Assembly (NCBI RefSeq): GCF_003002875.1
Contig: NZ_PVTH01000003.1
Location: forward strand, 248,001 to 312,000
Origin: Arcticibacter pallidicorallinus
GTDB taxonomy: Bacteria; Bacteroidota; Bacteroidia; Sphingobacteriales; Sphingobacteriaceae
Direction: 5' to 3'
Length of the DNA stretch: 64,000 nucleotides
This document shows positions 60,516 to 61,310 of the stretch, one piece after another. How positions within the stretch are numbered: position 1 is the first letter of the stretch; every line of letters starts with the position of its first letter. The position numbers and the translations under genes are program-made. The notes beneath the pieces were generated by a model. That model searched no databases and was not told the DNA's origin. It saw only the letters and a program-made list of their open reading frames with translations.

Positions 60516-60992
60516 CTACAGATCAAGGCTGATCTGCCTTTTAATACTTTCTTCCAAAGAGATAAACGTTTCAGTACGTTGAATACCTGCTACCGATTGA
60601 ATATGATCATTGAGAACCAGACGAAGATGGTTGGTATCGCGGCAAATAATTTTCGCGAACATACTCCAGGCACCTGTTGTGTAGTGTAACTCAACGATCT
60701 CTTTTATCCCTCTGAGCTTCTCCACCGCATCCTTATATGTAGAACCTTTTTCAAGGTAAATTCCAAGATAGGCGCATACGTCATAACCAATCTTTTGCGC
60801 GTCGACTAATAGGTTAGAACCCTTGATTATACCAAGATCCTGCATCTTTTTCATTCTGACGTGAATCGTTCCTCCCGACACAATCAGCTTCTTGGCGATC
60901 TCTGTATAAGGTATTGTAGCATCTTCCATCAGGATAGACAGGATTTGCATATCCAGATTATCAATTTCTAAATTAAGGCTCTTCTTTTCCAT
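60516..60992 (-). CDS. Lrp/AsnC family transcription regulator
   Basis: 158 aa. N-terminal winged helix-turn-helix (LDMQILSILMEDATIPYTEIAKK), linker, and a RAM effector domain with the ICRDTNHLRLVLNDHIQSVAGI core. It binds amino acids or similar ligands. Divergent from the tRNA-like gene and not in an operon; its target cannot be named. Confidence 0.9.
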   Translation of the reverse strand: MEKKSLNLEIDNLDMQILSILMEDATIPYTEIAKKLIVSGGTIHVRMKKMQDLGIIKGSNLLVDAQKIGYDVCAYLGIYLEKGSTYKDAVEKLRGIKEIVELHYTTGAWSMFAKIICRDTNHLRLVLNDHIQSVAGIQRTETFISLEESIKRQISLDL

Positions 60993-61068
60993 AAATTTTT
61001 TGAAAGATATTAATATATATACGAAGTAAATAATAAGTTCACAAAAATTAAAATATTTTGTTAAAATA

Positions 61069-61101
61069 TTTGCAACAATCGCGTACCCGATACTATATTT
61101 G
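61069..61101 (+). promoter_or_regulatory. Promoter of the tRNA-like gene
   Basis: TTTG (61069-61072), 21-bp spacer, TATATTTG (61094-61101). Start near 61108, about 25 nt before the RNA's 5' end. Confidence 0.7.
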
Positions 61102-61132
61102 TATCAAGCGGAAAGAAACTGCTTGAAAATAC

Positions 61133-61240
61133 TGTAAGGTGGTGAAACTGGCAGACACACCTCCTTGTCTCGGTGGCGGAGAATATGGGAAACCAGCAAT
61201 GGCTAACCACTCCTTGAAGGTTCGACTCCTTCCCTTACAG
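61133..61240 (+). tRNA. Unusual tRNA-like RNA: class II body, GUC anticodon, expanded variable region
   Basis: Acceptor stem TGTAAGG (61133-61139)/CCTTACA (61233-61239), with an extra C-G pair outside (61132-61240) and G as discriminator. D arm GTG/CAC with leucine-type loop AAACTGGCAGA. T arm GAAGG TTCGACT CCTTC (61216-61232). Tertiary bases T8, A14, GG, TTC, A58 are intact. The anticodon arm CCTCC TTGTCTC GGTGG (61160-61176) has a T-T mismatch and reads GUC with T at 37. The 39-nt variable region is closed by GGAG/CTCC and holds TGGGAAACCA and TGGCTAACCA hairpins. No encoded CCA. Confidence 0.7.
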
Positions 61241-61278
61241 CTCCTTTCAATAATTTAGGTTTATAATTGGTTAGTTTG

Positions 61279-61310
61279 AGCTCTCGCCCATCGGGAGCTT
61301 ATTTTTTTTC
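61279..61310 (+). terminator. Terminator after the tRNA-like gene
   Basis: AGCTCTCG/CGGGAGCT (one G-U pair; 61279-61286, 61292-61299), loop CCCAT, then TATTTTTTTT. Confidence 0.88.

Follow-up and report, generated by a model that had tools for sequence, protein, structure and literature searches.

What purpose is served by an RNA that pairs the body of a leucine tRNA with the anticodon loop of an aspartate tRNA? Such a molecule, 108 nt in length, is encoded by Arcticibacter pallidicorallinus (RefSeq assembly GCF_003002875.1) within the stretch of contig NZ_PVTH01000003.1 analyzed here, a 64,000-nt segment referred to as the window (positions 248,001 to 312,000 of the contig, forward strand). 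Judging from its identity elements and the genes it occurs with, the RNA is probably kept out of decoding and set aside as a carrier on which asparagine is made in a tRNA-dependent way. Its parts are located in the window as follows, with the basis of each assignment in brackets:

61133..61240, + strand: tRNA-like RNA body, 108 nt (sequence, covariance model, covariation)
61133-61139/61233-61239, + strand: acceptor stem, with U1-A72 and G2-C71 (sequence)
from 61142, + strand: D arm (sequence)
61160-61176, + strand: anticodon arm (sequence)
61165..61171, + strand: anticodon loop TTGTCTC, with G34 U35 C36, U37 and C38 (comparison with the genome's own tRNA-Asp, family counts)
61178..61213, + strand: variable arm, one nested hairpin (column counts, pair counts, free fold, RNAalifold of long forms)
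61216-61232, + strand: T arm (sequence)
61240, + strand: discriminator G73 (sequence)

A conserved tRNA-like RNA

The window sequence displays a 7-bp acceptor stem, a leucine-like D arm and a canonical T arm, and lacks an encoded CCA. The original prediction, made from this sequence alone, had described a leucine-type body with sound acceptor and T arms; this description holds, and A15-U48 and the 7/5 arrangement of acceptor and T arms extend across the family. In aligned copies, the acceptor stem is 7 bp, the D stem 3 bp, and the anticodon and T stems 5 bp each, accompanied by A15-U48, a 2-nt link on the 5' side of the T arm and G73. The family also retains the elongator-tRNA cloverleaf features of a 7-bp acceptor, a TTCRA T loop and G18 G19. 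An extra C(-1):G73 pair, proposed for the window copy, is not a family trait: the base at -1 is C in 100, A in 52, T in 51 and G in 1 of the 204 distinct copies.

A total of 242 copies were excised, 204 of them distinct, and 35 diverse ones were aligned for covariation. Pairing cells make up 97.6% in this alignment versus 86.0% in shuffles, two-sided changes occur at 14 of 27 pairs, and compensatory cells number 125 versus 29.5 in shuffles, with none of 500 shuffles scoring as high. The window copy matches covariance model R1 with 113.4 bits (E 8.9e-30). The free fold of this single sequence has ordinary stability (z -0.49), and the RNA is accepted as real because of the comparative evidence. 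ARAGORN, one of the checks initially suggested, calls no tRNA in the window, 61133-61240 included, and an Rfam gathering scan returned no match over threshold; matches to RT-6 (E 0.013) and PyrG_leader fell far under their own cut-offs and were dismissed. The RF00005 model (cut-off 29 bits) recovers two sister copies in the same genome at 35.5 and 34.2 bits and does not report the window copy. No earlier description of the RNA was found in Rfam 15 or the open-access literature.

By DNA search, the A. pallidicorallinus genome contains three full copies and one partial copy. The search of related genomes that had also been suggested gave matches, often in tandem, in 27 of 60 by DNA alone. A degenerate pattern located the RNA on at least 119 contigs of the named genome collection; among the 80 matches listed, all belong to Bacteroidota lineages (Sphingobacteriaceae, Chitinophagaceae, Saprospiraceae, Cyclobacteriaceae, Cytophagales and others) except one MAG labelled only 'bacterium'. 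The same pattern matched 16 IMG/VR contigs, and the sources of the 204 distinct sequences are these 16 viral contigs, various families of Bacteroidia and a single family from another class. Several viral copies sit within arrays of up to 24 ordinary tRNA genes, tRNA-Asp included, and one IMG/VR contig bearing the RNA encodes a phage DNA polymerase and clamp loader. Searched by blastn, the plasmid and GenBank phage collections gave no match. When R1 was run over 395 genomes of the phylum, members scored at least 96 bits with a clean gap below; the next match is a reduced copy in genome G127 (69 bits), followed by matches of tRNA-Leu length at ~63 bits and below.

This body of evidence bears on whether the RNA is merely a functionless repeat, decayed or selfish, derived from tRNA-Leu. 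Several partial copies in its own genome would suit that explanation, which is nevertheless extremely improbable given covariation unequalled in 500 shuffles, ends and loop that are invariant over many families, and the conservation of the promoter and of the linkage to asnC. The initial view that the locus is not simply a decayed fragment is upheld by the three full copies in the same genome, the 27 related genomes and the strong covariation.

Some members depart from the common form. In f68, the Bacteroidota family of another class (L288, L289, L293), position 33 is A and the anticodon stem reads CCGNC/GNCGG; two of the three genomes carry three tandem copies. The reduced copy of G127 (L290), 76 nt long, has an AUC anticodon and is devoid of a variable arm; G127 also encodes AsnA, and the copy looks like decay or conversion after a synthetase was gained. 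Remnants at L083, L226, L230, L234, L237 and L004 have lost the anticodon and variable arms and keep the promoter, ends and trailer, some with a new short hairpin; they could represent either decay or an RNA of shorter form. The anticodon arm of the window copy contains CACCTCCTT (61158-61166), found in the Sphingobacteriaceae form only, which is identical to the 16S anti-Shine-Dalgarno sequence. Elsewhere the segment reads CCCTCCT and the match is not kept; it was dismissed as probably due to chance.

A single nested variable arm

In the window, the variable arm is built from GGAG/CTCC, a bulge, TGG/CCA, a GAA/UAA internal loop and CCA-GCAA-TGG. Across the family, a first stem of 4 bp leads through a bulge of ~4 nt into a second stem of 3 bp, followed by a GAN/UAA internal loop and then a stem of variable length, closed by GNRA or other terminal loops. 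The UAA side of the internal loop is present in 188 of the 204 distinct copies, and the loop as a whole resembles the UAA/GAN motif. The variable region had been read as duplicated hairpins, TGGGAAACCA and TGGCTAACCA; these are the two strands of one arm, which covaries in the family and is also obtained by free folding of the window copy, and the two-hairpin model is ruled out by column and pair counts together with this fold. Long forms, which occur outside most Sphingobacteriaceae copies, add an inner, covarying 7-bp stem and a conserved GGGUNGACCAC loop region (RNAalifold of 16 rows, of which L255 was entered on the wrong strand). A separate elaboration is seen in the viral copies L210, L215, L221, L223 and L224, where an extra hairpin is inserted in the D loop.

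Identity elements for aspartate charging and amidation

The anticodon loop matches that of the genome's own tRNA-Asp (CTGTCAC) except that A37 is replaced and position 32 is C or U. Both the aspartate-type loop with T37 and the T-T mismatch in the anticodon stem, as first noted, are confirmed in the sequence. Among distinct copies, G73 and G2-C71 are found in 204 of 204 and U1-A72 in 203 of 204, and position 37 is occupied by T in 163, C in 27 and G in 14, mostly a pyrimidine and never A. Base 37 of the RNA is thereby without what the ribosome wants at this position. In copies found by the covariance model, U33 is replaced by G, C or A in several branches. Since GTC was fixed in the degenerate search pattern, the anticodon was checked on covariance-model copies found without the pattern: it is GUC in nearly all, the exceptions being CUC in lineage f29 (G439, G218) and UUC in G372, both of the Glu type. 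The copies concerned (L291 and L292 with CUC, L281 with UUC) possibly reflect a switch from Asp/Asn to Glu/Gln, or a loss of function.

Aspartate identity is specified by G73, G34, U35, C36 and C38 (PMC9976931). GatCAB is directed by U1-A72 to amidate Asp-tRNA-Asn and is kept from doing so by G1-C72 and U20a (PMC9976931; also PMC4206432); in E. coli AspRS, the G1-C72 pair of bacterial tRNA-Asp helps position the acceptor end (PMC9976931). The RNA possesses the aspartate determinants G34 U35 C36 C38 G73 and G2-C71, with exceptions at position 34 in f29 and G372, and conforms to the rule for GatCAB substrates, having U1-A72 and A instead of U at 20a. Missing are the G1-C72 pair and type I variable loop of tRNA-Asp, the A73 and leucine anticodon of tRNA-Leu, and the 8/4 or 9/3 arms of allo-tRNAs, the family being 7/5. 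The RNA thus joins features read by AspRS with features read by GatCAB.

A misreading tRNA had been raised as one possible role. As a decoding tRNA for programmed misreading, the RNA would insert Ser, Leu, Asp or Asn at Asp codons; its cloverleaf is canonical and its T and D arms are intact, phages carry it beside near-complete tRNA sets, and its type II body and G73 could be seen by SerRS, which reads a long variable arm together with G73 (PMC7609411). Decoding, however, requires U33 and a purine at 37, a combination the family does not maintain: A37 never occurs, and several branches have G, C or A in place of U33. The genome also encodes an ordinary tRNA-Asp GUC, and misreading would leave the GatCAB link, the loss of AsnB and the AsnC neighbour unexplained. 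We regard it as very unlikely.

GatCAB without asparagine synthetases

The U1-A72 pair leads to the prediction that GatCAB, scored here by its GatB subunit alone, should accompany the RNA. Of the 98 Bacteroidia genomes in the phylum sample, RNA and GatB occur together in 37, GatB by itself in four (G055, G127, G206, G254) and neither in 57, with the RNA by itself in none (Fisher p 7.5e-23, in a test that ignores kinship). A BLAST set of 37 Sphingobacteriaceae comprises 23 genomes with both, four with GatB only, nine with neither and one, G031, in which the RNA is present and GatB was not found; in a second set, GatB occurs in 48 of 49 RNA-positive genomes. AsnRS is encoded by all 98 Bacteroidia genomes, so GatCAB is not needed there for making Asn-tRNA-Asn. 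A GlnRS would likewise spare GatCAB the making of Gln-tRNA-Gln; the enzyme has been reported in 13 of 14 Bacteroidetes (PMC3927822), and a look for GlnRS and AspRS genes in the fetched loci gave a single GlnRS, in an RNA-negative genome.

If the RNA carries asparagine, a second prediction follows, namely that asparagine synthetase has been lost. The sample consisted of 80 genomes: 49 RNA-positive, 30 RNA-negative, and G127, placed in neither group. TIGR01536 was dropped as a test for AsnB because EPS-type paralogues, which are found in many genomes and may be active as synthetases, match it; the E. coli AsnB protein was used as query instead. E. coli-type AsnB is absent from the RNA-positive genomes (0/49 versus 18/30 RNA-negative, p 3e-10, kinship ignored), and the same split is seen within Sphingobacteriaceae (0/20 versus 8/11, p 2e-5, kinship ignored). 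The orthologues found are full-length, with 63-67% identity to E. coli AsnB and scores >800 bits; a 19th, more distant AsnB (40%) occurs in G407, an RNA-negative genome. AsnA is mostly absent from RNA-positive genomes as well (3/49, versus 8/30 RNA-negative). An E. coli-type synthetase was not found in nine of the RNA-negative genomes.

An AsnC regulator beside the RNA gene

The RNA gene is flanked by a divergent regulator gene and by its own expression signals:

60516..60992, - strand: AsnC orthologue, divergent, 140 bp from the RNA (protein comparison, NCBIfam, Pfam PF01037)
61051..61071, + strand: perfect inverted repeat AAATATTTT-GTT-AAAATATTT, overlapping the -33 element (sequence)
61069..61101, + strand: Bacteroidetes-type promoter, TTTG at 61069-61072 and TATATTTG at 61094-61101 (sequence)
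61105..61125, + strand: 5' leader hairpin CAAGC...GCTTG (copy comparison)
61254..61274, + strand: conserved trailer TTTAGGTTTATAATTGGTTAG (copy comparison)
61280..61310, + strand: intrinsic terminator GCTCTC-GCCCATC-GGGAGC and T run (sequence)

The promoter and terminator attributed to the RNA in the original prediction are both visible, in a layout common to most copies: TTTGCAA and then TAnnTTTG lie upstream, and an intrinsic terminator, variable in its stem and with the loop GCCCATC kept in many, lies at the end. In many other copies the leader carries a boxA-like GTTCTTTAA instead of the small hairpin. The trailer follows the RNA in Sphingobacteriaceae, yet it also occurs without the tRNA-like RNA, up to 20 times per genome even where the RNA is not detectable by DNA search. 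Joined to a terminator hairpin (often with the GCCCATC loop), it is present in 20 copies in G008 and 13 in G020, and is exemplified by window 61254-61310, L083, L088, L089, L241 and L251, sometimes with a promoter of its own. In Sphingobacteriaceae, trailer and terminator together form a repeat that is independent of the tRNA-like RNA and may be a small RNA family in its own right.

With E. coli AsnC, the product of 60516-60992 shares 45% identity (E 5e-44), and with Lrp 25%; its best NCBIfam model is PRK11179 AsnC, at 175 bits, under the cut-off of 227. The window locus is one of 89, among 135, at which a gene of the Lrp/AsnC family is divergent from the RNA; the next commonest neighbour is found at 14. 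Every one of the 89 regulators resembles E. coli AsnC (median identity 43%) more than Lrp (25%). The E. coli genes asnC and asnA are transcribed divergently, 151 bp apart; E. coli AsnC responds to asparagine and activates asnA when asparagine is short. Relative to asnC, the RNA gene occupies the place of the E. coli synthetase gene asnA. In 20 loci from RNA-negative genomes, asnC was never found next to asnA or asnB. The inverted repeat at 61051..61071 is a possible AsnC operator on the basis of its sequence; a general palindromic operator upstream of the RNA was rejected, with palindromes at only some loci and a mean arm of 5.6 versus 4.6 in shuffles.

A divergent asnC at 89 loci would also be expected of a regulatory RNA, sensing asparagine or aspartate, or acting as a decoy on AsnC, AspRS or GatCAB, without bulk amidation. 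The long structured arm with its conserved internal loops speaks for such a role, as does the fact that a carrier has no known release step. A regulator would nevertheless not explain the replacement of asparagine synthetase genes, and the phage copies lie among ordinary tRNA genes, which makes this quite an improbable function.

A proposed carrier for asparagine synthesis

The aspartate-type loop, the amidation tag and the company of GatCAB in genomes without synthetases probably point to the making of asparagine, not to codon reading. The carrier proposed here is built on the observed conservation, structure, identity elements, GatCAB co-occurrence, absence of E. coli-type AsnB (and mostly of AsnA) and AsnC neighbourhood; charging, amidation, release and regulation are its predicted parts. 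AspRS would recognise G34 U35 C36 C38, G73 and G2-C71 and charge the RNA with aspartate, after which GatCAB, recognising U1-A72, would convert the attached aspartate to asparagine by amidation. The replacement of A37, the elaborate variable arm and the leucine-type body would bar the RNA from reading Asp codons. Asparagine would then be released, feeding AsnRS and the cell, and the divergent AsnC probably tunes transcription of the RNA to asparagine supply. Of the roles first suggested, a non-translational tRNA is thus the kind favoured, with asparagine synthesis in place of lipid or cell-wall aminoacylation.

Several observations weigh against a carrier. The RNA lacks the G1-C72 pair that helps E. 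coli AspRS place the acceptor end, and AspRS, being of class II, might be impeded by a long variable arm. AsnA coexists with the RNA in three genomes, and the anticodons of f29 and G372 are of the Glu type; G031 has no detected GatB, and nine RNA-negative genomes have no detected E. coli-type synthetase. The weak point is release: rapid deacylation is required, and bulk supply would need, by a rough estimate, ~1 turnover/s per molecule.

The main rival is a scaffold for an asparagine transamidosome, in which the RNA would bridge AspRS (through the anticodon loop) and GatCAB (through U1-A72), the amidated substrate being Asp-tRNA-Asn made by a non-discriminating AspRS. Identity elements and co-occurrence also fit a scaffold, and no release step is required. 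Elsewhere, organisms with AsnRS and GatCAB but no synthetase use a non-discriminating AspRS with tRNA-Asn, and Bacteroidetes genera have been placed in that group (PMC4206432). The tRNA-Asn of A. pallidicorallinus has the U1-A72 pair this would call for, but also U20a, and that of the RNA-positive genome L178 has G1-C72, so that by the published rules both look like poor GatCAB substrates. The invariant G73 further suggests a working acceptor end, and we consider a scaffold unlikely.

Relation to known systems and implications

The RNA stands apart from its nearest known counterparts. It has in common with tRNA-Asp (GUC) the loop apart from position 37 (and C32/U32), C38, G73 and G2-C71, and differs by U1-A72, the lack of A37, A20a, a type II body and a variable arm of at least 36 nt. 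With tRNA-Leu, the next-best R1 match and well below the family, it shares the D arm, the A15-U48 Levitt pair and a long variable arm, and differs by G73 in place of A73, the aspartate-type loop and a much larger variable arm. The staphylococcal tRNA-Gly for peptidoglycan is a dedicated non-proteinogenic tRNA, likewise set apart from translation for metabolic use, although amino acid, enzymes and architecture differ. Allo-tRNAs and selC* tRNA-Cys (Mukai 2017, as reviewed in PMC7609411) are also unusual long-armed bacterial tRNAs, some with GUC anticodons, but have 8/4 or 9/3 acceptor/T arms, unlike the 7/5 found here. The nearest pathway is that of GatCAB on tRNA-Asn in Deinococcus, Thermus, Bdellovibrio and Staphylococcus (PMC4206432), which similarly combines AspRS, GatCAB and a U1-A72 RNA in the presence of AsnRS and the absence of a synthetase. 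In that pathway, the decoding tRNA-Asn itself acts as carrier and AspRS has to be non-discriminating, whereas here a separate RNA with an aspartate-type loop should suit an ordinary AspRS.

More speculatively, and with considerable doubt, the RNA may represent a separate class of 'metabolic tRNAs', taken off decoding to serve as covalent cofactors: an amino acid would be synthesised while attached to the RNA and afterwards freed. The large variable arm, with its UAA/GAN loop and the GGGUNGACCAC hairpin of the long forms, could then be a module for release or for docking to the transamidosome, and phages might carry the RNA to sustain asparagine supply when host tRNAs fail.

If the carrier reading is true, Bacteroidota would possess an RNA dedicated to amino-acid biosynthesis, apart from translation. 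This would explain why GatCAB is kept by many members of the phylum that have AsnRS but neither AsnA nor AsnB, and would give a further reason for odd members in phage tRNA arrays. An ordinary AspRS would suffice for asparagine to be made on a tRNA, and the release of the product would become the new question.
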